Notes under the pieces: generated by a model
What the model saw: the letters and a program-made list of their open reading frames with translations, nothing else
Databases searched by the model: none
Told to the model about the DNA's origin: nothing
Program-made: the position numbers and the translations under genes
Shown: positions 51,152 to 64,000 of the stretch, piece by piece
How the letters are laid out: each line of letters begins with the position of its first letter
Position numbering within the stretch: position 1 is the first letter of the stretch
Assembly: GCF_012927355.1 (NCBI RefSeq)
Contig: NZ_JABBGK010000001.1
Location: 310,001 to 374,000 of the forward strand
Source: Rhizobium terricola
GTDB taxonomy: Bacteria > Pseudomonadota > Alphaproteobacteria > Rhizobiales > Rhizobiaceae
Length of the DNA: 64,000 nucleotides
Direction: 5' to 3'

Positions 51152-52405
51152 ATGGACGCCGGCGCATGGAAAACTACTGAGCCCCATGGCCTTGCCCGAA
51201 CCGCCGGGCGGGAAGGCTTTCTGGTGCGTGGCGTCGTGCCGGCGGCAGCCCTCTATAACGGTCTGCTCGCGATCATCAACGCGCATGTCATGCCACTCGG
51301 CTTTGCCCATGTGGCGCTGGCCGAAATCGGCCTGCTCGGCATTTCGCTGCTCTACCTGCTCTATCGCGGTTTCACCCAGCAGGCTCTGTCGATCGTCTTC
51401 CTGGTCGGCTTCTTCAGCATCGTCACCGTCTATATGTCGGTGGCGAACGGCATGCTGTTCGTCGATTTCCTGCGCAACGTGCTGATCATCGCGGTCTTCT
51501 GCCAACTCGGACGCATGACCGACGAGGCGACGGTCGCCTTTGTCTTCCGCTTCGTCTGCTTGGTCGTGCTTGCCGTTCTGGTCGTCGAGATCTTCTTCAC
51601 CAAGATCTACGAGGACCTGTTTTATCCGGCACTTTATTTTTCCAACACGCGTGGCCTGGAGCAGATCTCGTTCGGCGGATCGAAGATCTTCCAGAACGCG
51701 GTCAAGATTCCGGGGCGTTTCTCGTTCGGTCTCAGCGATCACCGCACGGCTTCTGTCTTTCTCGAGCAGGTGTCGCTCGCCAATTTTTCCGGCGTCCTCG
51801 ACATCTATCTGGTCAGCCGGTTCAAGCAGCTTCGCCGATCCGACATCGTCCTGATGCTCTCGACCATCGTGCTGATCCTGCTCACCAACGATTCGCGGAG
51901 CATGCTGTTTTTCTCGCTGCTCTGCCTTGCCGGTTTCTTCGTCTTCCCGAAGCTCAGCAACCTATTTCGCCCGCTGATCATGCCGGCTGTGATCCTGGCC
52001 GGAGCGCTCGTCTATTTCCTCAGGCCGGATGCCTCCGGTGACACGCTCGACGGGCGTATCGTCCTGACGATGAAGGGTTTTTTCGAACTCGACTTCGTTT
52101 CGCTTCTCGCGCTTCAGGTGCGCGAGGTCGGCAGCTTCGCCGATAGCGGTTATATCTACATCATCAATGCCAGCACGGTTTTCGGCCTCGTCGTGTTCTG
52201 GGCCTTCGTGACATTCTACCCGGCGGGCTTGACCGACGACCAGAAGCGCTGCGCCTATGCGGTCGCCATCTTCATCTTCATGAACATGATGATCGGCGGA
52301 AACGCGATTTTCTCCATCAAGGTCGGCGCCCTGCTGTGGCTTCTCGTCGGCTTCATGAAGTCGTCGGAGGGTGAGACTAAATTAACTCCGCCCGGCGATC
52401 ATTGA
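51152..52405 (+). CDS. Polytopic membrane protein, probable polysaccharide polymerase (Wzy/O-antigen ligase-like)
   Basis: A 417-residue protein with about ten membrane segments and one larger loop (about 160-215), the layout of Wzy-type polymerases. A typical sentence of the family is LLTNDSRSMLFFSLLCLAGF. The first 30 residues are not hydrophobic, and the start at 51152 lacks a clear ribosome site, so it may begin further in. Neighbours (acyltransferase, Wzz-like, galE, glf) support a surface-glycan role. The name is based on topology and context, not on a catalytic motif. Confidence 0.72.
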   Translation: MDAGAWKTTEPHGLARTAGREGFLVRGVVPAAALYNGLLAIINAHVMPLGFAHVALAEIGLLGISLLYLLYRGFTQQALSIVFLVGFFSIVTVYMSVANGMLFVDFLRNVLIIAVFCQLGRMTDEATVAFVFRFVCLVVLAVLVVEIFFTKIYEDLFYPALYFSNTRGLEQISFGGSKIFQNAVKIPGRFSFGLSDHRTASVFLEQVSLANFSGVLDIYLVSRFKQLRRSDIVLMLSTIVLILLTNDSRSMLFFSLLCLAGFFVFPKLSNLFRPLIMPAVILAGALVYFLRPDASGDTLDGRIVLTMKGFFELDFVSLLALQVREVGSFADSGYIYIINASTVFGLVVFWAFVTFYPAGLTDDQKRCAYAVAIFIFMNMMIGGNAIFSIKVGALLWLLVGFMKSSEGETKLTPPGDH

Positions 52406-52481
52406 AGACCTCGCTGCGGGTGTCGGACTATTGTCCGCCAAAGACCCGGCGCCTCGTAGATCTTACGGTCAGACGATCCAT

Positions 52482-53537
52482 ATGCTTGTTCAACTGCAAT
52501 ATACCAGGGCGATCGCCGCCCTTCTCGTCGTCTATTTCCATGCGATCCTGCAGCTCCAGAAGCTTGCGCCGGACGCGTGGCTGAACGACTATCTGTTCGG
52601 CAAGAGCGGGGTCGACTTGTTCTTCGTGCTCTCCGGCTTCGTCATGTGGATCACCACCTGCGACAAGCCGATGAGCGTCGGGGACTTCTGGTGGCGCCGC
52701 ATCCGGCGCATCGTGCCGCTCTACTGGGCGATGACGCTGTTTGCCGCGACGGTCGCCTTCGTCATGCCGCAGATCCTGAAGTCGACCCAGTTCGACGTGC
52801 CGCATATCCTCGCCTCGCTCTTCTTCCTGCCGTGGATCAACCCCGCCGATCCCGAAGGCCGGATGATCGCGCCGGTCATCGTTCCGGGCTGGACGCTGAA
52901 TTTCGAGATGTTCTTCTACCTGCTGTTCGGCTTCTGCCTTCTGCTGCCGCGACAGCTCCGGCTTGCCGGCCTGGTTGCGCTGATCGCCACGATCTTTCTC
53001 GTCTGCACGCTGGTCCTGCCGGATCTGACGGTCGGCCGGTTCTACGGCGATTCGGTCATCTTCGAATTCGTCGCAGGCGCCGTCCTCGGCCATCTCTACA
53101 AGGCCGGACATCGTCTGCCGATCACGGTGGCCGGCGCCATGGCGCTTCTTGGTTTCGCTGCGCTGCTCTATCTCGATTTTCTCGAGGTCGACCTTCCGCG
53201 GTTCTTCACCATCGGTATACCCTCGATCCTGATCGTCTATGCGGCCACCTCGGTCGAGGTCCGCGATCACCGGTCGCTCCACTGGCTGCAGGTGCTGGGT
53301 GATGCTTCCTATTCGATTTACCTCACCCACGCCTTCACGCTGGCCGGCATGCGGATGATCTATCCGCTGGTGATGCCCATTCTGCAGAGCGACGTGCTCT
53401 TCGTCGTCGCGATGATGGTCGCGTCCTCGCTGATCGGGCTTGCGAGCTATTATCTGTTCGAGCTTCCGGTCGGCAGGCTGCTCGCTTCGGTCCGCTTCAG
53501 CCGCGGCACCCGCCCGGTGCCGGCGCGGTCCGTCTGA
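52482..53537 (+). CDS. Acyltransferase 3 family membrane protein
   Basis: A 351-residue OafA/ExoZ-type O-acyltransferase with about ten membrane segments. It opens LQYTRAIAALLVVYFHA with the catalytic His, followed by GVDLFFVLSGFVMW and RRIRRIVPLYW. It likely acetylates or succinylates a surface sugar. The frame is open from a TTG at 52431; ATG 52482 gives the usual family start. It ends 13 bp before the GH5 gene. Confidence 0.88.
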   Translation: MLVQLQYTRAIAALLVVYFHAILQLQKLAPDAWLNDYLFGKSGVDLFFVLSGFVMWITTCDKPMSVGDFWWRRIRRIVPLYWAMTLFAATVAFVMPQILKSTQFDVPHILASLFFLPWINPADPEGRMIAPVIVPGWTLNFEMFFYLLFGFCLLLPRQLRLAGLVALIATIFLVCTLVLPDLTVGRFYGDSVIFEFVAGAVLGHLYKAGHRLPITVAGAMALLGFAALLYLDFLEVDLPRFFTIGIPSILIVYAATSVEVRDHRSLHWLQVLGDASYSIYLTHAFTLAGMRMIYPLVMPILQSDVLFVVAMMVASSLIGLASYYLFELPVGRLLASVRFSRGTRPVPARSV

Positions 53538-53550
53538 CGGGACGATCGCG

Positions 53551-54627
53551 ATGAACCGGACCCTGAAGCCTTCACTCCAAAGCGCCGGTGCCATCGCCGT
53601 GATGCTTGGCCTCGGATTTGGCGCTGCGGCCCAGGCCGGAAGCGGCGACCTCTGTTTTCGCGGGGTGAACCTTTCCGGGGCCGAATACGGCGATGCCAAC
53701 GGGCAGGAGGGGGTGAACTTCACCTATCCCTCCGAGCGCACTCGCGGTTATTTCGCGGCCAAGGGGTTCGATACGGTCCGGCTTCCGTTCCGCTGGGAGC
53801 GGTTGCAGCCCAGCCTTGGCCAGCCGTTCGACGCAATCGAACTCGAGCGGCTGAAGGCAAGCGTGGCGAGCTTTCGCGGGCTCGGCCAGACGGTGATCCT
53901 CGATCCGCACAATTTCGGCTATTATGGCGACCTCAAGGTGGGGTCGACGGACCTGCCCCCCCGGCTGTTTGCCGATTTCTGGATCCGGCTTGCGGCAGAG
54001 TTCGCCAACGAGGAGGGCATCGTCTTCGGCCTGATGAACGAGCCCCACGACATCGCCCCGCGCGACTGGCTTGAGGCCGCCAATCTGGCGATCGCCGGCA
54101 TCCGGGCGGTGAAGGCGGGCAATCTCGTCCTCGTTCCGGGCACCTACTGGAGTGGTGTGGCGAGCTGGCAGTCGGATCTCGGCCAGGGCGCGAACAGCGA
54201 GGTCATGCTCGGCGTCAAGGATCCGGGCGGCAACTTTGCCTTCGAGGTCCATCAGTACATGGACGCCGATTTCTCCGGTACGCACGAGGCCTGCGTCAAC
54301 GCCGACAAGGCGGTCGCGGCCATCGGCGACCTTTCCGCCTGGCTGCGCAAACACGGGAAGAAGGCTTTCCTCGGCGAGTTTGGCGGTTCGTCGGAGGCTG
54401 CCTGCCTCGCCGGAATCGAGAAGATGGCGGATCAGGTCGGTGCGGATTCCGACGTCTGGCTCGGCTGGACCTACTGGGCGGGCGGCGACTGGTGGCCGCC
54501 GACCGAGGGTAACAACATCCAGCCGACTGCCAAGGGCGACCGCAAGCAGCTCTCGGCGCTCAAGCCGGCGCTCTCGGCAAAGGGGTCCGGGGCAGGGGCC
54601 TGCGCGGTCATTCCGGGTCCGGGCTAA
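53551..54627 (+). CDS. Secreted glycoside hydrolase family 5 (cellulase-like)
   Basis: A 358-residue enzyme with a signal peptide (residues 1-29, ending AAAQAG). GH5 features: FRGVNLSGAEYG near the N-terminus, DPHNFGYY, acid/base Glu164 in GLMNEPHD, and nucleophile Glu276 in FLGEFGGS. It probably cuts beta-1,4-glucan or a related polymer. Hydrolases encoded in bacterial polysaccharide loci often trim or release the nascent polymer, as BcsZ does in cellulose synthesis; that role is inferred. Confidence 0.9.
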   Translation: MNRTLKPSLQSAGAIAVMLGLGFGAAAQAGSGDLCFRGVNLSGAEYGDANGQEGVNFTYPSERTRGYFAAKGFDTVRLPFRWERLQPSLGQPFDAIELERLKASVASFRGLGQTVILDPHNFGYYGDLKVGSTDLPPRLFADFWIRLAAEFANEEGIVFGLMNEPHDIAPRDWLEAANLAIAGIRAVKAGNLVLVPGTYWSGVASWQSDLGQGANSEVMLGVKDPGGNFAFEVHQYMDADFSGTHEACVNADKAVAAIGDLSAWLRKHGKKAFLGEFGGSSEAACLAGIEKMADQVGADSDVWLGWTYWAGGDWWPPTEGNNIQPTAKGDRKQLSALKPALSAKGSGAGACAVIPGPG

Positions 54628-54790
54628 GACTTCATTAACGATAAAGTTTCAAGGTTTGTTCAGGAGCCGATCTCTCGCGATCGATTCGGCGAAGTGCCGT
54701 GCCATGTCGTCATGGGGCTGCGGTTGCCGAAGGAGCGGGAGCTGACGACCAACTCGGCCGGATATCGGCCAGACATCGGATTGTAGACGC

Positions 54791-56326
54791 GTGGGCGATT
54801 ATTTCTCAGAGCCGGAGGACAGGAAGAACTGCGGTGTGCGTCGCTATCTCGGCGCGCCCAGGGATGACGCTGCCGCACAGCGTGCTTCTTCCGCGCCTTC
54901 GGGAACCGGGTCGTCGGGCGACCCGTCGCGACCGTCTGAACGATGCCATCCAGAGGGGCCGGTCGACTGCCCGCCGCCTGGCGCCGCCAATACCATCCGC
55001 CGTGAAGAACCTTTCGTCTTCGACCTCGCCTTCGTGCTTTCGTCCGCCTGGCGCTACCGGACGCCCGTTCTTGCCGGTGCGGTGGTCTTCGCGCTGGTCG
55101 GCGGCGCGCTGAACTCGCTGCTGCCCAAGGTCTACAGTGCCGCCGCGACGCTCTACTTCGATCCGCAGAAGTTCGCGGTCGACGTCGTCAGCGAGGAGAA
55201 GGTGATCTCGTCGGAGGTGTTCAATGCGACCATCGACAGCCAGACACGCATCATCACCTCCTATTCGGTGCTGGAGGACGTTGCCAAGAACCTGAAGCTC
55301 GGGACCGATCCGGAATTCCTCGGAAAGCTCTCCGGAGATCCGGCCGTCGACTTCAACACGGTGCTCGCAACGCTGGTGAAGCGTATCGAGGTGAGCCGTC
55401 AGGACGGCACCTTCATCTTCCAGATCAAGGTGAAGGCCGGCGAGCCGCACAAGGCGGCCGATATCGCCAATGCGCTGGTGGCGGCCTATCTCAAGGACGC
55501 CCGCTTCAACGCCGAAAGCAGCTACGAGACGGCCAATGAAGGGCTGACGCAGCGGCTCGGCGCGCTTCGGCAGGCGGTCATCGATGCGGAAGCCGCTGCC
55601 CGCGACTATCGCGCCAAGAACGATCTCTATTCGGTGGGCGGCGACATGATCGCCGACACGCGCCTCCAGTCGCTCGACGAGTTGCTCGTCGCGGCGCAAC
55701 ACAAGACGATTGCGGCCAAGGCCCAGCTCGACACCGTATCCAAGCTCGACATCGGTAACGTGCTGGTCGCCGATCCGAGCAACGTCAATGCCTCGCGCAC
55801 ACTGGCCGATCTCAGGAACCAGTATGCCACCCAGTCTGCCAATGTGAGCAGCCTCACCCAGCGTCTCGGATCGCGTCATCCGCAGCTCCAGGCCGCCCAG
55901 GCCTCGCTCGGCGACATCAAGAACCAGATCAGTGGGGAGCTCGGCCGCATGGTGGCCGCCTCCCGCAGCGCCTATCAGGCGGCGCAGAGGGAAGAGGCGG
56001 ACCTCCTGAAGCAGATCAATATCCAGAAGGCGAGCCAGGCGACGAGTTCGAGCAGCCTGATCGAGCTCAGCGAACTGGAACGCAAGGCCAAGGCGGCGCG
56101 CGATATTTACGAGGCCGTGCTGAAGCGGACGGAAGAGACAGCGGCGCAGAAGAACCTTTACGAGAGCAACGTCCGGATCGTCTCGCAGGCAGTCCCCGCC
56201 CAGGCGCCGGACGGTCCGAGCCGCAAGATCCTGTTCCTGGCCGGCGTCTTCGGCGGTGCCGTGTTCGGCTTCGGCCTTGCGGTGCTCGCTGCGGTCGGAC
56301 GGGCACTCTATCTGCGGACGCGGTGA
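54791..56326 (+). CDS. Wzz/GumC-like polysaccharide chain-length/export protein
   Basis: A 511-residue polysaccharide copolymerase: an N-terminal membrane segment (AGAVVFALVGGALNSLLP), a Wzz domain (YSAAATLYFDPQKF onwards), a long coiled-coil periplasmic region (about 230-450), and a C-terminal membrane segment (ILFLAGVFGGAVFGFGLAV). No Walker motifs follow, so no BY-kinase is fused. The first 70 residues are Pro/Arg-rich and unlike the family; the GTG at 54791 has no good ribosome site, so the true start may be later. Confidence 0.85.
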   Translation: MGDYFSEPEDRKNCGVRRYLGAPRDDAAAQRASSAPSGTGSSGDPSRPSERCHPEGPVDCPPPGAANTIRREEPFVFDLAFVLSSAWRYRTPVLAGAVVFALVGGALNSLLPKVYSAAATLYFDPQKFAVDVVSEEKVISSEVFNATIDSQTRIITSYSVLEDVAKNLKLGTDPEFLGKLSGDPAVDFNTVLATLVKRIEVSRQDGTFIFQIKVKAGEPHKAADIANALVAAYLKDARFNAESSYETANEGLTQRLGALRQAVIDAEAAARDYRAKNDLYSVGGDMIADTRLQSLDELLVAAQHKTIAAKAQLDTVSKLDIGNVLVADPSNVNASRTLADLRNQYATQSANVSSLTQRLGSRHPQLQAAQASLGDIKNQISGELGRMVAASRSAYQAAQREEADLLKQINIQKASQATSSSSLIELSELERKAKAARDIYEAVLKRTEETAAQKNLYESNVRIVSQAVPAQAPDGPSRKILFLAGVFGGAVFGFGLAVLAAVGRALYLRTR

Positions 56327-56399: not shown

Positions 56400-57386
56400 T
56401 CACGCGTGTCCGTTGAAACGTGAATGCCAGTTCCAGGCAGAACGGATGATGTCGTCGATGCCGTGTTTCGGCTCCCAGCCCAGAACGCTGCGCGCCTTCT
56501 CGTTGTTGGCGACCAGCATCGGCGGATCGCCCGGGCGACGTTCTGTCCGCGCGACTGGTAGCGGGCGGCCGGAGACGTTTTCAATCGCCCCGATCAGCTC
56601 GTTGACGCTGGTGCCTGTCCCTGTGCCGAGATTGATCGCGACGGTCTCGCCGCCATCCATCAGGTATTCGAGAGCGCGGACATGGGCGTCGGCGAGATCG
56701 TTGACGTGAATGTAGTCGCGGATGCAGGTACCGTCACGGGTGTCGTAGTCCTCGCCGAACACCGAGAAGACCGCGCGGCGGCCGAGTGCCGCGTCGATGG
56801 CCAGCGGGATCGCGTGCGTCTCGGGCGTGTGCCATTCACCGATCCGCCCTTCGAAATCGGCCCCGGCGGCGTTGAAGTAGCGCAGCATGACGGAGCGCAT
56901 CCGGCCGCAGAGGTCGAAATCGTGGAGGGCCTGCTCGACGATGTGCTTGGTGCGTCCGTAGGGATTGATCGGGCTCTGCGGGTGGCGCTCGTCGAGCGGC
57001 AGGTATTCGGGCTTGCCGTAGGTGGCGCAGGTCGAGGAGAAGACGAAGGACCGGATGTCGGCTTCCATCAGGGCCTGCAGAAGGGTCAGCGAGCCGCCGA
57101 CATTGGCGTCGTAGAAGGCTTCCGGCTCCTTGAAAGACTGGCCGACCTCGATCAGGCCGGCGAAATGCAGGGCGGCAACCGGCTTGTGCTTCGCCAGTAC
57201 CTCGCGCAGCCGTTCGCGGTCGCGGATGTCGCCGTCCTCGGACGGCCCCCATTTGACGAATTCGCGGTGGCCGCTGGAGAAGTTGTCGTAGACGAGCGGC
57301 TGATAGCCTTTATCGGCGAGCGCGAGGCAGGTGTGGGAGCCGATATAGCCGGCACCGCCGACGACAAGGATGGTCTCATTGCTCAT
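56400..57386 (-). CDS. galE: UDP-glucose 4-epimerase
   Basis: A 328-residue short-chain dehydrogenase of the extended type: NAD motif VGGAGYIGSHTCLALADKG, catalytic Ser/Thr in FSSTCATYG and YxxxK in YGRTKHIVEQ, and substrate region MLRYFNAAGAD. It interconverts UDP-glucose and UDP-galactose, providing the substrate for the adjacent UDP-galactopyranose mutase. It runs opposite to wzz and in the same direction as glf, 95 bp downstream of it. Confidence 0.95.
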   Translation of the reverse strand: MSNETILVVGGAGYIGSHTCLALADKGYQPLVYDNFSSGHREFVKWGPSEDGDIRDRERLREVLAKHKPVAALHFAGLIEVGQSFKEPEAFYDANVGGSLTLLQALMEADIRSFVFSSTCATYGKPEYLPLDERHPQSPINPYGRTKHIVEQALHDFDLCGRMRSVMLRYFNAAGADFEGRIGEWHTPETHAIPLAIDAALGRRAVFSVFGEDYDTRDGTCIRDYIHVNDLADAHVRALEYLMDGGETVAINLGTGTGTSVNELIGAIENVSGRPLPVARTERRPGDPPMLVANNEKARSVLGWEPKHGIDDIIRSAWNWHSRFNGHA

Positions 57387-57481: not shown

Positions 57482-58669
<1,188 letters not shown>

Positions 58670-58729: not shown

Positions 58730-60781
58730 TCAGGCGCCTTCCTTGGTCCAGAGGCGCTTGTCGAAGGGGAGGGGCGAATGGTCGTTCCACCGGGCAAGCT
58801 TTTCGCGATAGCGACGGCGATAGGTGGCGTCGTCCTCGAACTCCTGATTCTCCAGCATCAGTTCGGCGCCGATCTCGTAATAGACGTCGAGGTTGGTGAG
58901 ATCCGGGACCGGCATCTCGCCGCGCTCGCATTCGCCCTGGATCTGCCAGAACACCTCCTCAAGGCGCCGGACCAGCGCAGGGATGTCACGCAGAACGCTG
59001 GTCTCGCGCTGGCTCTGGAGGCTGGCGCGGACGGCTGCGAGGCTCGGGCGATCCTTGGCGAAGGCGATCGCCTTCTCCCGGTATTCTTCCGGCGTTTCGC
59101 AGATCAGCTCGGGGATTCCGGCTGCGGCCACGATGCTGCTGCAGAAGCGCGAGGCGAAGGTCTTGCCCGGCACGGTCAGGACCGGCAGTCCCATGGTGAT
59201 CGCGTCCGCGGCGGTCGAGTGCGCGCCGTAGGGGAAGGTGTCGAGGAAGAGGTCGGCGAGGCCTATCCGTGCGAGGTGATGGGCGTTTGCGGCCTTGGGC
59301 GCGAAGATCAGGCGCTCGGGCTCGACGCCGTAGCGAGCGGCCGTGTCGCGCAGGCGCTGGTTGACGGCATCGGCGCCGGCGAGCAGCCACAGCACGCTGC
59401 CCGGCGTTGCGGCGAGGATTTCCATCCAGCGGGCGAAGCTGGCGGCGGTCGTCTTCTGCATGCCGTTGAAGCAGGCGAAGACGAAGGCATTCTCCGGCAG
59501 GCCGGCTTCCGTCCGGGACGGCGGGGCGGCGATGACGCGCTTGCGGTCGATCGGCTGGTTGCAGGGGATGCGCAGGACGCGTTCCGAATAGTAGAGCTCG
59601 GTCTCCGGCGGGACGATCTGTTCGTCGGCGATCAGGTACTGGTGGAAGGGGCTGCCCATGGAGCCCGGATAACCGCAGAAGCTGACATTCACCGGCGCCG
59701 GCCGGTAGGCGAAGATCTTGGTGCGGGCGTGCTTGGTGAAGCCGTTGACGTCGACCAGGATATCGATCTCGTCGGCGGCGATCTGTCGGGCTGCGGCAAC
59801 GTCGTCGATCGTCGCGATGTCGCGCCAGCAATCCACGGCCTGCTTGATACGTTCCTGCGTGGCATCGTTCACGCGCGGTTCGCCGCAATAATAGGCGTAG
59901 ATCTCGACGCTTTCCTTGTCATGAAGCTCGAGCACCTCGCGGAGGGCAAAGCCGACGGCATGGTCGCGCAGGTCGGACGAGACATAGCCGATGCGCAGCC
60001 GCTCGCCGGTGCCGGTCTTCTGGCGCGGGGCCTTGCGGGGGAATTCGCTGAGGTCGGGCCGGCCGACCAGGGTCTTGATGTAGCGGCTCGCCTTGGCCAG
60101 CTGGAAGAGCGGGTCGTCCGAGTAGCAGCCGAGGGGCAGCGGAGACATGGCGTCCACCAGTTGCCGGCCGGTTACGTGTTCCGAAGTGACGATGATCGGC
60201 CACTTGCACTGGTGCTGGCGAAGCGACAGCCAATGCTGGCCGGATTCGGGCTTGTCGGGACGCAACTCGATCGCCTGCCAGAGAGCGGTCTCGGCTTCTT
60301 CGAGCAGGCCTGCGCCTTCCATGACGCGGCCGATATGCTGGAGGGTCATCAGACGGTGGCTGGTCCGATCCGGGGTGATGTCGCCGGTTGCATCCACATA
60401 GGTGCGCCACTGCTGGATCGCCTGGAGATTGAGGCCGCAATCCTCGTAGGCGCGGCCGAGATTGATGTGCGCCTGGGCAAAATCGGGATTGAGCTTCAGG
60501 CAGGCGCGCAGCGCGTGGATCGATCCGGGGATGTCGTCCATCTGCCGGAGCGTCACCGAATAGTTGAAGTAGACGATGTGCAGGAAGGGGCTCGCCTCGT
60601 TGAAGGCGATCCAGACCTTGTAGAGCTCGGCCGCAAGCGCCTTCTGGCCTGAGGCGCTTAGCGTCTCGGCAACCTGAAACAGCTCGGTGAGGGGCAATTG
60701 CTGGTTTCGCGCCCTTTCCAGCAGGGAGGCGAACAGCGCAATGCTGTCTGAGGCGAACATATTATTCATGACCAAGGACAT
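58730..60781 (-). CDS. TPR plus SPINDLY/O-GlcNAc-transferase-like glycosyltransferase (GT41)
   Basis: A 683-residue soluble protein. Residues about 40-190 hold TPR-like helices (e.g. SIHALRACLKLNPDFAQAHI, NLGRAYEDCG). The catalytic part has the OGT/SPINDLY marks RIGYVSSDLRDHAVG, DILVDVNGFTKHART, PVNVSFCGYPGSMG, FNGMQKTT, LDTFPYGAHSTAADAITMGL and TVPGKTFASR. Eukaryotic OGT puts GlcNAc on Ser/Thr, SPINDLY puts O-fucose. The TPR part is suited to hold extended protein substrates. The next gene on the other side of the intergenic region encodes a Ser/Thr-rich repeat protein, an obvious candidate acceptor (inference). Starts at 60781, 60769 and 60760 are possible. Confidence 0.9.
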   Translation of the reverse strand: MSLVMNNMFASDSIALFASLLERARNQQLPLTELFQVAETLSASGQKALAAELYKVWIAFNEASPFLHIVYFNYSVTLRQMDDIPGSIHALRACLKLNPDFAQAHINLGRAYEDCGLNLQAIQQWRTYVDATGDITPDRTSHRLMTLQHIGRVMEGAGLLEEAETALWQAIELRPDKPESGQHWLSLRQHQCKWPIIVTSEHVTGRQLVDAMSPLPLGCYSDDPLFQLAKASRYIKTLVGRPDLSEFPRKAPRQKTGTGERLRIGYVSSDLRDHAVGFALREVLELHDKESVEIYAYYCGEPRVNDATQERIKQAVDCWRDIATIDDVAAARQIAADEIDILVDVNGFTKHARTKIFAYRPAPVNVSFCGYPGSMGSPFHQYLIADEQIVPPETELYYSERVLRIPCNQPIDRKRVIAAPPSRTEAGLPENAFVFACFNGMQKTTAASFARWMEILAATPGSVLWLLAGADAVNQRLRDTAARYGVEPERLIFAPKAANAHHLARIGLADLFLDTFPYGAHSTAADAITMGLPVLTVPGKTFASRFCSSIVAAAGIPELICETPEEYREKAIAFAKDRPSLAAVRASLQSQRETSVLRDIPALVRRLEEVFWQIQGECERGEMPVPDLTNLDVYYEIGAELMLENQEFEDDATYRRRYREKLARWNDHSPLPFDKRLWTKEGA

Positions 60782-61571: not shown

Positions 61572-64000
61572 ATGGTCTCGATCATTTCTTCACTGACCGC
61601 CAACCAGGTCAAAGCTCTTTCCACGGCATCCATCGTTGCTCTCGACACCGAAGACATGGCGGCGCTTTCGTCCGACCAGATCAAGGTGCTCTCCTCCACG
61701 CAGGTCGCCGCTCTTGAGACGGTCGATCTCGCTGCGCTCAGCTCCACCCAGTTCAGCGCCGTCTCCGCAAGCGCGGTTGTCGGTCTGAGCGCAACCCAGC
61801 TCGCTGTCCTCGACGCCACCAAGATTGGCGCAATGGGCACCTCGCAGGTCGCAGCCCTCTCGTCTACCCAGATCGGCACCCTGACGACCACGCAGATTGC
61901 AGCCCTCACCACGACCCAGCTCGCCGCTCTCGGCTCCTCGGCCCTCTCGGCCCTCGGCACCGATGATATCGCGACCTTCTCGTCGACGGACCTTGCAGCG
62001 ATCAGCTCGAAGGCCCTTTCCGGCCTTTCGACCGCGAACGTCGCGGCTCTGACCACCGCTCAGCTCGCCGGCCTGACCTCGACGCAGGTCGCCGGCCTCA
62101 CCTCGACCCAGCTTGGCGCCATGACGACCACCCAGGTCGCCGCCCTTTCGACCGCCCAGGTCGCAGCGCTCAGCTCGGCCCAGGTTGCTGGTCTCTCCAC
62201 CGCCAATGTCGCCGTCCTGACGACGGCCCAGATCGGCGCTCTCAGCTCCAAGGCAGTCGCTGCTCTGACGACCGCCCAGATCGGCGCCCTGTCGACGACG
62301 CAGGTTGCCGGGTTCACGACGGCCCAGATCGGCACGCTCGGCTCTGCCGCTATCGGTGCCCTCGGCACGGACGACATCGCCACCTTCGATGCAACCGAGA
62401 TTGCTGCCATCGGCGCGAAGGCTGTTGCTGGTCTCGCAACCGCCACTGTTGCAGCACTCAGCACGGCCCAGGTCGGCGGTCTGACCTCCGCGCAGCTCGG
62501 TGCCCTGACCTCGACGCAGCTCGGCGCCATGACCACGACGCAGGTCGCGGCTCTCAGCACGACCCAGGTCGCTGCTCTCAGCTCCACCCAGGTTGCCGGC
62601 CTCAGCACCGCTGCCGTCGCCGCTCTCACCACCGGTCAGGTTGGTGCACTGAGCTCCAAGGCAGTCGCAGCACTGACCTCCGCCCAGGTCGGCGCACTGT
62701 CGACGACCCAGGTTGCAGCCCTGACCACCGGTCAGCTCGCAACCCTCAGCTCGACTTCGCTCGCTGCTCTCGGCACGGACGATATCGCCACCTTCGATTC
62801 GGCCGATATCGCGGCGATCAATGCCAAGTCGCTTGCCGGTCTCACGACCACTGCCGTTGCCGCCCTCTCCACCGCTCAGCTCGGTGGCCTGAGCTCGGCA
62901 CAGGTCGCGGCTCTCAGCTCTGCGCAGATCGGTGCGCTGACGACCACGCAGGCTGCTGCACTTAGCACCACCCAGGTCGCCGCGCTCAGCTCCACCCAGG
63001 TCGCTGCCATCAGCACGGCCAACGTCGCAGTCCTGACGACTGCCCAGGTTGCCGCTCTCAGCTCCAAGGCTGTCGGCGCCCTGACCACCGCGCAGTTCGG
63101 TGCCCTGACAACGGCCCAGGCCCAGGCTCTGAGCCCGGCCCAAGTCGCAGCACTCGGTTCCGAAGACCTTGCCGCTCTCGGCACGGACGACATCGCCCTC
63201 TTCTCGACGGACGATATCGCCGCGATCAATTCCAAGGCGGTTGCCGGTCTCTCGACCGCAGCCGTGGCAGCTCTAACCACCGCGCAGGTTGCCGTCCTGA
63301 CCACCAGCCAGGTCTCCGCCCTGACGTCGGCCCAGTTCGGAGCCCTGACCTCCACGCAGTTCGCGGCCTTCAGCTCCACACAGATCGGTGCGCTGAGCTC
63401 TGCGGCAATCGCAAGCCTCGGCACGGACGACGTCGCTACGTTGTCGTCGACAGATCTCGCCGCGATCAGCGCCAAGGCAATCGTCGGTCTCTCGACCGCC
63501 AACGTGGCAACGCTGACGTCCACCCAGCTCGCGGGCCTTGGCTCCGCGCAGGTTGCCGCTTTGACCTCCGGCCAGATCCAGGCACTCACCACCACTGCGG
63601 TGGCTGCTCTGACGACCACGCAGGTCGCGGCCCTGACCTCGACCCAGGCTGCTGCGCTCACGACCACGCAGCTCCAGAACATGACGACGACGCAGCTCGG
63701 AAGCCTGACCGCCAAGGCGATCTCCGGTTTCACCTCGACCCAGATCGATACCTTCAATACCGGACAGATCAATGGTTTCGGCACCACGCAGCTCGCCGCA
63801 CTGACCTCCGTTCAGCTCGGCGCCCTGATGGCTGACGATATCGACACGTTCTCGTCGACCGATATCGCCGCCCTCAACGCCAAGGCGATTGCTGGCCTCA
63901 CCACCGCAGCCATCGGTTCCTTCGATGCGACCCAGGTTGCGGCCCTGACTTCGGCACAGGTTGCTGCCCTGACATCGACCCAGGTTGCCGCTCTCACGAC
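61572..64000 (+). CDS. Giant Ser/Thr-rich octapeptide-repeat protein (3' end outside window)
   Basis: Open from ATG 61572 to the window end (809 codons so far), preceded by AAAGG. The whole visible protein is an 8-residue repeat with consensus [S/T]-[S/T]-[T/A]-Q-[V/I/L]-A-A-L, in strict 24-bp register from the first codon; 101 complete octads are visible. Marker octads of the type GTDDIATF occur at 61956, 62364, 62772, 63180, 63420 and 63828, defining superunits of 17 octads (408 bp), one shortened to 10. Ser plus Thr is about 30% (estimate). I see no Cys, Trp, Tyr, Arg or His, and one Pro. There is no N-terminal signal peptide, so secretion, if any, would need a C-terminal (type I) signal or another route. 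The function of the family is not known to me. Confidence 0.9.
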   Translation, partial: MVSIISSLTANQVKALSTASIVALDTEDMAALSSDQIKVLSSTQVAALETVDLAALSSTQFSAVSASAVVGLSATQLAVLDATKIGAMGTSQVAALSSTQIGTLTTTQIAALTTTQLAALGSSALSALGTDDIATFSSTDLAAISSKALSGLSTANVAALTTAQLAGLTSTQVAGLTSTQLGAMTTTQVAALSTAQVAALSSAQVAGLSTANVAVLTTAQIGALSSKAVAALTTAQIGALSTTQVAGFTTAQIGTLGSAAIGALGTDDIATFDATEIAAIGAKAVAGLATATVAALSTAQVGGLTSAQLGALTSTQLGAMTTTQVAALSTTQVAALSSTQVAGLSTAAVAALTTGQVGALSSKAVAALTSAQVGALSTTQVAALTTGQLATLSSTSLAALGTDDIATFDSADIAAINAKSLAGLTTTAVAALSTAQLGGLSSAQVAALSSAQIGALTTTQAAALSTTQVAALSSTQVAAISTANVAVLTTAQVAALSSKAVGALTTAQFGALTTAQAQALSPAQVAALGSEDLAALGTDDIALFSTDDIAAINSKAVAGLSTAAVAALTTAQVAVLTTSQVSALTSAQFGALTSTQFAAFSSTQIGALSSAAIASLGTDDVATLSSTDLAAISAKAIVGLSTANVATLTSTQLAGLGSAQVAALTSGQIQALTTTAVAALTTTQVAALTSTQAAALTTTQLQNMTTTQLGSLTAKAISGFTSTQIDTFNTGQINGFGTTQLAALTSVQLGALMADDIDTFSSTDIAALNAKAIAGLTTAAIGSFDATQVAALTSAQVAALTSTQVAALT

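Follow-up and report, generated by a model that had tools for sequence, protein, structure and literature searches.

Why should a protein built from eight-residue repeats keep a second, longer register, most often of 17 octads? The question is raised by a gene at the end of the window, as we call the stretch of 64,000 nucleotides of Rhizobium terricola DNA analysed here (contig NZ_JABBGK010000001.1, positions 310,001 to 374,000). The window holds the 5' part of this gene (table 1). The whole gene encodes 1439 residues, arranged as 179 complete octads in a single phase with a seven-residue tail, in an open frame without internal stop. On balance we favour the reading that the product is a giant alpha-solenoid, a screw of octads, which would be O-glycosylated by a GT41 enzyme, exported by type I secretion and employed as an extracellular fibre or matrix protein.

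Table 1. Features of the window, in window coordinates.
Feature	Position	Strand	Remarks
Octad-repeat gene, 5' part	61572..64000	+	809 of 1439 aa; gene end at contig position 375891; PF20080
17-octad superunit 1	61956..62363	+	first octad is the marker GTDDIATF
17-octad superunit 2	62364..62771	+	
17-octad superunit 3	62772..63179	+	
10-octad unit	63180..63419	+	three turns on the proposed reading; fits the spacing rule
17-octad superunit	63420..63827	+	
Next superunit, beginning only	63828..64000	+	marker MADDIDTF; interrupted by window end
N-terminal 408 residues (51 octads)	61572..62795	+	one short helix per octad predicted (AlphaFold2)
TPR + Glyco_transf_41 (OGT-like) gene	58730..60781	-	divergent from repeat gene; Pfam, linkage, co-occurrence, PDB relatives
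UDP-galactopyranose mutase (Glf) gene	57482..58639	-	Pfam PF03275, linkage, co-occurrence
NAD-dependent epimerase gene	56400..57386	-	Pfam Epimerase; similar gene in 9 of 76 loci (from best 80 of 214 stretches)
Wzz/GNVR protein gene	54791-56323		exopolysaccharide-type region upstream
GH5 cellulase family gene	53440-54624		exopolysaccharide-type region upstream
Acyltransferase gene	52431-53534		exopolysaccharide-type region upstream

Octads and superunits

How strict are the two registers? Every one of the 101 complete octads in the window ends in L, F, I, M or V. The first-pass annotation had placed six marker octads in the window, and their starts (table 1) are all exact; counted from the ATG at 61572, they are preceded by 16, 33, 50, 67, 77 and 94 octads, so the spacings that it claimed hold. 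Five of the six start with GTDD, the sixth being MADDIDTF. The interruptions that it described at fixed places are equally real: the ten octads with Lys at position 3 all fall at superunit position 3 or 13, and an octad with D or E stands at superunit position 2 after each of the six markers. We also looked for an early stop beyond 64000, on whose absence that proposal had been made to depend; there is none, and the frame stays open to its end. The unit is not always 17, the 10-octad unit occurring twice in the gene. In the whole gene the signal at a lag of 17 octads stands 13.8 SD above shuffled octads. It stands 17.7 SD above them in a second copy in the same genome, a paralogue of 1823 aa on another contig (C14), whose 13 markers are separated in every case by 17 octads. 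Neither a GT41 nor a type I secretion gene adjoins the paralogue.

Could this periodicity be the product of recent slippage? The window gene has eight 17-octad superunits, and to answer this we compared seven of them in pairs (21 pairs; the superunit at octad 156 was left out). The values were 0.44–0.66 for pS, 0.05–0.31 for pN and 0.07–0.41 for simple dN/dS. Such synonymous divergence together with low dN/dS argues that recent slippage is not the cause, and the dN/dS values bear out the earlier suggestion that both levels of periodicity are under selection on protein structure. For dN/dS between species no row was used, those for L063, L066 and L114 appearing out of register. The superunit is conserved in other rhizobia, as had been anticipated; a fixed architecture of 17 octads is not, since other spacings occur, with 24 or 31 octads in distant homologues. 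In some homologues the octad phase slips.

Predicted structure

If each octad is a structural unit, how might it fold? The AlphaFold2 model of residues 1–408 of the window protein, built with 62 aligned sequences, has a mean pLDDT of 95.8 and a pTM of 0.85; for the C-terminal 304 residues of a homologue these values are 96.4 and 0.86. Both models have a helix of about four to six residues in practically every octad, and neither has a strand. The homologue model ends in a 13-residue helix, which bears the AAYQ-type terminus conserved in many homologues. With V and L as core residues, the octad S/T-x-x-Q/D/K would correspond to a short N-capped helix, and the protein is predicted to be an alpha-solenoid with tandem helical units. 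The units may stack in one continuous superhelix; the pTM of the models is 0.85–0.86, and VIA gave matches of ARM type. Several VIA rows imply about 27–30 residues per turn, assuming turn-for-turn matching and an ARM repeat of 42 residues; this estimate is of little weight because the rmsd is about 6–8 Å.

Other folds were suggested by the searches. Leucine-rich-repeat and designed chains are among the 40 PDB matches listed. LRR_EndoS scored 28.8 bits on the window part and 32.1 on the whole protein (cut-off 27.9) and Gp5_trimer_C 43.8 on the whole protein (cut-off 30.9), no single stretch passing in either case. Because both models are all-helical, we ascribe all these matches to composition and leucine spacing. 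A leucine-rich repeat would have a strand in each repeat, and neither model has one.

Why 17 octads?

If the octads form a solenoid, how many of them would complete a turn? To address this question we examined 37 repeat ORFs of this genome and its near relatives. The best octad lag is 17 in 29 of them and 24, 27, 34 or (in two fragments) 1 in the other eight; frequent runners-up are 10, 27, 44, 34, 7 and 24. The mean power spectrum of 28 of the proteins, nine of mixed phase or fragmentary having been left out, has peaks at 7/17, 5/17, 2/17, 3/17 and 8/17. With 5/17 as the fundamental, these are respectively its second, first, third, fourth and fifth harmonics, and the rank order of the peaks follows it with a Spearman coefficient of -0.95 (p 0.0045, allowing for the choice among eight fundamentals).

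Marker spacings were then called with a 24-residue profile trained on the paralogue, which is blind to spacings below four octads, in 90 ORFs of 76 named loci. These loci were kept from the best 80 of 214 contig stretches, and some overlap or end early. All 615 spacings, which come from related genes and are not independent, are sums of 7s and 10s. Below 40 octads only 7, 10, 14, 17, 20, 24, 27 and 34 occur, and at 3.40 octads per turn none of these departs from a whole turn count by more than 0.12 turn. The phase coherence of the spacings is maximal at 3.40 (0.96, or 0.91 without the 17s). In distant homologues the superunits have 24 octads (Niveispirillum and the genomes G330, G478 and G507), 31 or 62 (G262, G757) and 27 or 44 (Pseudomonas).

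Does the same pitch appear elsewhere? A peak at 0.290–0.296 per octad is listed in 22 of 25 further distinct ORFs and is the strongest in 16; none is listed in L161, L162 and L163, three ORFs of family f218. One further ORF, L165, a run of 38 octads, is without a spectrum, and L144, L152, L155 and L166 gave no row under the filters. A blind comb search placed 15 of 26 ORFs at 3.33–3.50 octads per turn. The 11 misses comprise two at half the frequency, two at the second harmonic, two at 0.1665 and five (all f218) at 0.125 or 0.497. From the spacing rule, the harmonics of 5/17 and the peaks at 0.290–0.296 we conclude that 17 octads are probably five turns of the solenoid, at 3.4 octads per turn, a turn number that is well supported by periodicity in the sequence.

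Charged residues are distributed unevenly about the proposed screw. Over the 17 positions the net charge of the paralogue varies smoothly with angle, being acidic between 296 and 106 degrees (by way of 0) and neutral or basic from 127 to 275. Octads with Lys or Arg cluster by angle in both proteins of this genome (p 0.0005), and so, in the window protein, do those with D or E (p 0.001, position 4); Gly at position 7 of the window protein is not clustered.

Might the 7/10/17 register instead be the bookkeeping of recombination? In-register unequal crossing over could have shuffled ancestral blocks of 7 and 10 octads, and the spacings would then add up from blocks already present, no structural rule being needed. 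Superunits of one gene reach 84% DNA identity, and in the window gene one 10-octad unit with its neighbours resembles the other, much as such shuffling would leave them. On the other hand, the order of the peaks follows the harmonics of 5/17, lineages whose superunits have 24 or 31 octads retain a peak near 0.29, and superunit pairs are old, with pS about 0.5 and the low dN/dS given above. We regard recombination without a structural rule as unlikely, and retain the five-turn superunit.

Possible export and location

Where would such a protein reside? Homologues of type I ABC and HlyD proteins occur in nine of the 27 distant records searched, some of them partial, which represent eight distinct loci (L139, L140, L141, the single record L143/L149, L150, L159, L168 and L170). 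Closer to the window's family they are rare: they were found in one of the 76 loci from the best 80 of 214 stretches (L065), but not in the other 75, nor in the window's own locus. Two PrtD-type ATPases over the cut-off are encoded in the R. terricola genome, away from the repeat gene locus. RTX calcium-binding nonapeptides (PF00353) are not among the families found for the 1439-aa protein at E 0.001. In Cereibacter a gene for a Calx-beta/RTX protein (L140:15868-18954) adjoins the repeat gene. The type I genes in the loci of distant homologues suggest that the repeat protein is probably exported by type I secretion.

The protein might alternatively be a cytosolic scaffold, modified inside the cell by GT41 as cytosolic proteins are by the eukaryotic OGT. 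No signal peptide is visible by eye in the N-terminal sequences and no type I genes adjoin the window gene, as would be expected of a scaffold; but type I substrates lack N-terminal signal peptides, type I genes accompany homologues at eight distinct places beyond the window's family, and the two PrtD-type ATPases are encoded elsewhere in the genome. A cytosolic location thus seems to us improbable, and type I export is the reading that we carry forward.

GT41, Glf and epimerase

Which enzymes might act upon the repeat protein? The divergent neighbour of its gene encodes TPRs and a Pfam Glyco_transf_41 domain (245.9 bits against a cut-off of 25). Its closest solved relatives are XcOGT (E 1.6e-75) and human OGT, and its His274 and Lys443 align with a catalytic His and a catalytic Lys of XcOGT. 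Assignment to the NGT/HMW1C enzymes was rejected, NCBIfam NGTferase scoring 28.9 bits against a cut-off of 1000.

Among the 76 loci from the best 80 of 214 stretches, GT41 is present in 48. In 42 it directly adjoins a repeat gene, and all four arrangements are represented (21, 15, 4 and 2). It also occurs in ten of the 27 distant records searched, some partial, corresponding to nine distinct loci: two Pseudomonas plasmids, Cereibacter, Rhodovastum, Niveispirillum (one record, twice), G330, G262, G757 and G774. In a further genome, G045, it adjoins the repeat gene. Of 60 near relatives, 29 of the 30 that carry PF20080 (R. terricola included; the exception is G026) have a GT41 above 600 bits, against none of the 30 non-carriers, a line that was set after a gap between 667 and 348 bits had been seen. 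In the family sample a GT41 orthologue (E 1e-150) was found in 17 of 27 carriers and in none of 172 others, at most five candidates having been scored per genome and ten carriers being without a scored orthologue. Linkage and co-occurrence together suggest that GT41 glycosylates the repeat protein.

Glf tracks the repeat gene less strictly. By clustering it is present in 34, and by tblastn in 38, of the 76 loci from the best 80 of 214 stretches. With a threshold of 550 bits it is found in 24 of the 30 carriers against one of the 30 non-carriers (G047), and weaker matches add three carriers and two non-carriers. The epimerase, which is UDP-glucose 4-epimerase-like, is a possible supplier of UDP-Gal. 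No paper joining GT41 with galactofuranose was found in the open-access literature searched.

Other genes were seen nearby. A 417-aa protein with a PF12248 domain (L065:2178-3428) recurs at 16 other loci, the 17 lying among the 76 from the best 80 of 214 stretches; GT41 and Glf are nearby and it is often between them. The two Pseudomonas loci and that of Cereibacter share a small SAM methyltransferase, 56–88% identical (L139:7876-8478, L140:4870-5463, L141:11413-12018). A 159-aa ORF downstream of the repeat gene (L009:4979-5458) matched no Pfam family, had no counterpart among the other loci and is probably not a gene. PADLOC gave no match.

Could GT41, Glf and the epimerase simply belong to an exopolysaccharide locus that lies beside the repeat gene by chance? 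Exopolysaccharide-type genes do stand upstream in the window (51152-56323), among them those for a Wzz/GNVR protein, an acyltransferase and a GH5 enzyme. However, GT41 accompanies the repeat gene in four arrangements and on replicons of Pseudomonas, Cereibacter and Rhodovastum too, and a GT41 at the scores used above was not found in repeat-free genomes, whether the 30 near relatives or the 172 of the family sample. Chance adjacency is accordingly quite unlikely, and we keep GT41 as the candidate modifier of the repeat protein.

Family and distribution

Is the repeat new? The first-pass annotation knew of no named family with this build. There is one: Pfam PF20080, the ALTTAQ repeat, matches the window part at 544.4 bits (cut-off 26.4) and the whole protein at 940.5, in 55 stretches, and the PDB chain 9zem, HeliScrew4, consists of the same octads. 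The repeat itself is already known to databases and the fold probably is. The PF20080 model has 38 positions, a length that 8 does not divide, and so does not keep to the octad register. NCBIfam gave no family for the repeat protein. The open-access literature searched held no paper on ALTTAQ/PF20080, on an octapeptide repeat with Rhizobium, or on HeliScrew; nor were the length rule or the GT41/Glf/type I module found there.

PF20080 occurs in 30 of 60 near relatives and, among sampled genomes, in 27 of 199 from the family, 6 of 385 from the class and 28 of 398 from the phylum (25 over the cut-off), R. terricola being counted each time; of 14 control genomes only Caulobacter vibrioides has it. 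The 76 loci from the best 80 of 214 stretches are mostly from Rhizobium, Sinorhizobium/Ensifer, Agrobacterium, Ciceribacter and Shinella, with one from Xanthobacter. Plasmid homologues occur also in Cereibacter, Pseudomonas, Rhodovastum, Niveispirillum and Thioclava. Where the 59 plasmid records with a homologue carry an annotation, the product is named as a heme utilization protein, a large exoprotein, an ICE nucleation protein or a hypothetical protein. That it serves in ice nucleation or haem utilisation as an exoprotein, as the Cereibacter and Pseudomonas records would have it, is very improbable indeed, since no such Pfam family was found (window part at E 0.1, whole protein at E 0.001) and the predicted fold is all-helical.

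Several homologues are unusual. On Pseudomonas asturiensis plasmid pCC1524 (L141:12279-19720) the repeat gene is split over three ORFs, as if broken. Family f218, another family of the phylum (L160-L163, L168-L170), has many octad ORFs, the longest reaching several thousand residues, and in some of them even and odd octads alternate. Weak octad-like similarity is seen in Spiroplasma plasmid CP117533.1. A match to Mycobacterium phage Squirty (NC_026588.1; 26% over 14%) looks compositional and was set aside.

Proposed mechanism

How might these observations be joined? Each octad would form a single short N-capped helix (S/T-x-x-Q/D/K) followed by V-A-A-L core residues, and the helices would wind into a screw in which one turn takes about 3.4 octads, or 27 residues. 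As this is not a whole number, the same face of the screw would recur only after nearly whole counts of turns: 7 octads (two turns), 10 (three), 17 (five), 24 (seven), 27 (eight) and 31 (nine). The 17-octad superunit would then be the five-turn repeat by which acidic, basic and Asn positions stay in stripes. In the cytosol the neighbouring GT41 probably O-glycosylates the repeat chain, of which 27.8% (28% in round figures) is Ser and Thr, the donor being perhaps UDP-Galf made by the linked Glf. The chain would probably then be exported unfolded through type I secretion and fold outside into the striped helical screw, which might serve as a matrix protein or a long fibre outside the cell, at the surface or in the matrix. 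We hold export, donor sugar and matrix role less firmly than the turn number, and in that falling order.

What would follow? If true, the commensurability rule would be the principle of the coiled-coil heptad and hendecad one level up: evolution would add or remove only blocks of nearly whole turns (7, 10, 17, 24, 27 or 31 octads), and the charge stripes would stay aligned. A superunit set by the pitch of the screw would account for both levels of the repeat and supply PF20080, which occurs in alpha- and gammaproteobacteria, with a simple rule of length; such a rule could be useful in repeat-protein design. If a bacterial GT41 has a single linked substrate family, the targets of bacterial OGT-like enzymes would become directly testable, and that in harmless soil bacteria. 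The fuller combination, in which the commensurability rule, dedicated cytosolic O-glycosylation by GT41, rhizobial galactofuranose from the linked Glf and type I export all hold, we put forward only tentatively, as the lesser chance; it would amount to a glycosylated, type I-secreted helical fibre system undescribed in the open-access literature searched.

Comparison with known systems

How does the octad screw compare with solenoids already described? None of the matches listed by Foldseek and VIA was convincing over the full length. The part available of a 2024 review distinguishes eight alpha-solenoid subfolds, no octad among them (PMC11514114), and a 2025 paper on solenoid design has, in the portion of its main text seen, neither 'screw' nor '8 residues' (PMC12775518). 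Armadillo and HEAT proteins would share the helical superhelix: VIA gave Z 8.4 with an rmsd of 6.6 over 266 residues for the engineered protein 4rv1 and Z 5–7 for importin alpha and beta-catenin, all within the range of this tool for common arrangements. Their repeat, however, has 30–40 residues and two or three helices, whereas the octad has 8 residues and one helix, and by the ARM/HEAT definition in the available part of PMC10035497 it was rejected as a member of either class. Mesothelin is likewise a solenoid of short helices, with a Foldseek probability of up to 1.00 among the matches listed, a TM-score of at most 0.37 and VIA Z 6.6 over 131 residues. The accessible part of its description gives a right-handed solenoid whose 24 short helices form a coil of nine layers; unlike the octad protein, it is an animal protein that mixes repeats of the ARM and HEAT kinds and has two or three helices in each circle (PMC10035497).

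The best PDB sequence match is 9zem, HeliScrew4 (E 5.8e-29 with the N-terminal profile, over chain residues 2–110 of 120; E 4e-16 with the full repeat protein), which is absent from the 50 Foldseek matches listed. It is a 120-aa chain of the same octads, and from its name we take it to be a designed protein. Its 15 octads are, however, too few for a 17-octad superunit.

And the glycosyltransferase? The literature listed on such enzymes, type I secretion and adhesins comprises OGT and HMW1C-type work. The HMW1/HMW1C system works alike in that a GT41-type enzyme modifies a large exported protein, but, in the part of the account available, it is N-linked and uses two-partner secretion (PMC3012730). 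XcOGT and human OGT are its nearest solved relatives, the partner enzyme aligning with them over both TPR and catalytic parts; unlike them, the GT41 of this locus is linked to, and co-occurs with, one candidate substrate gene family.
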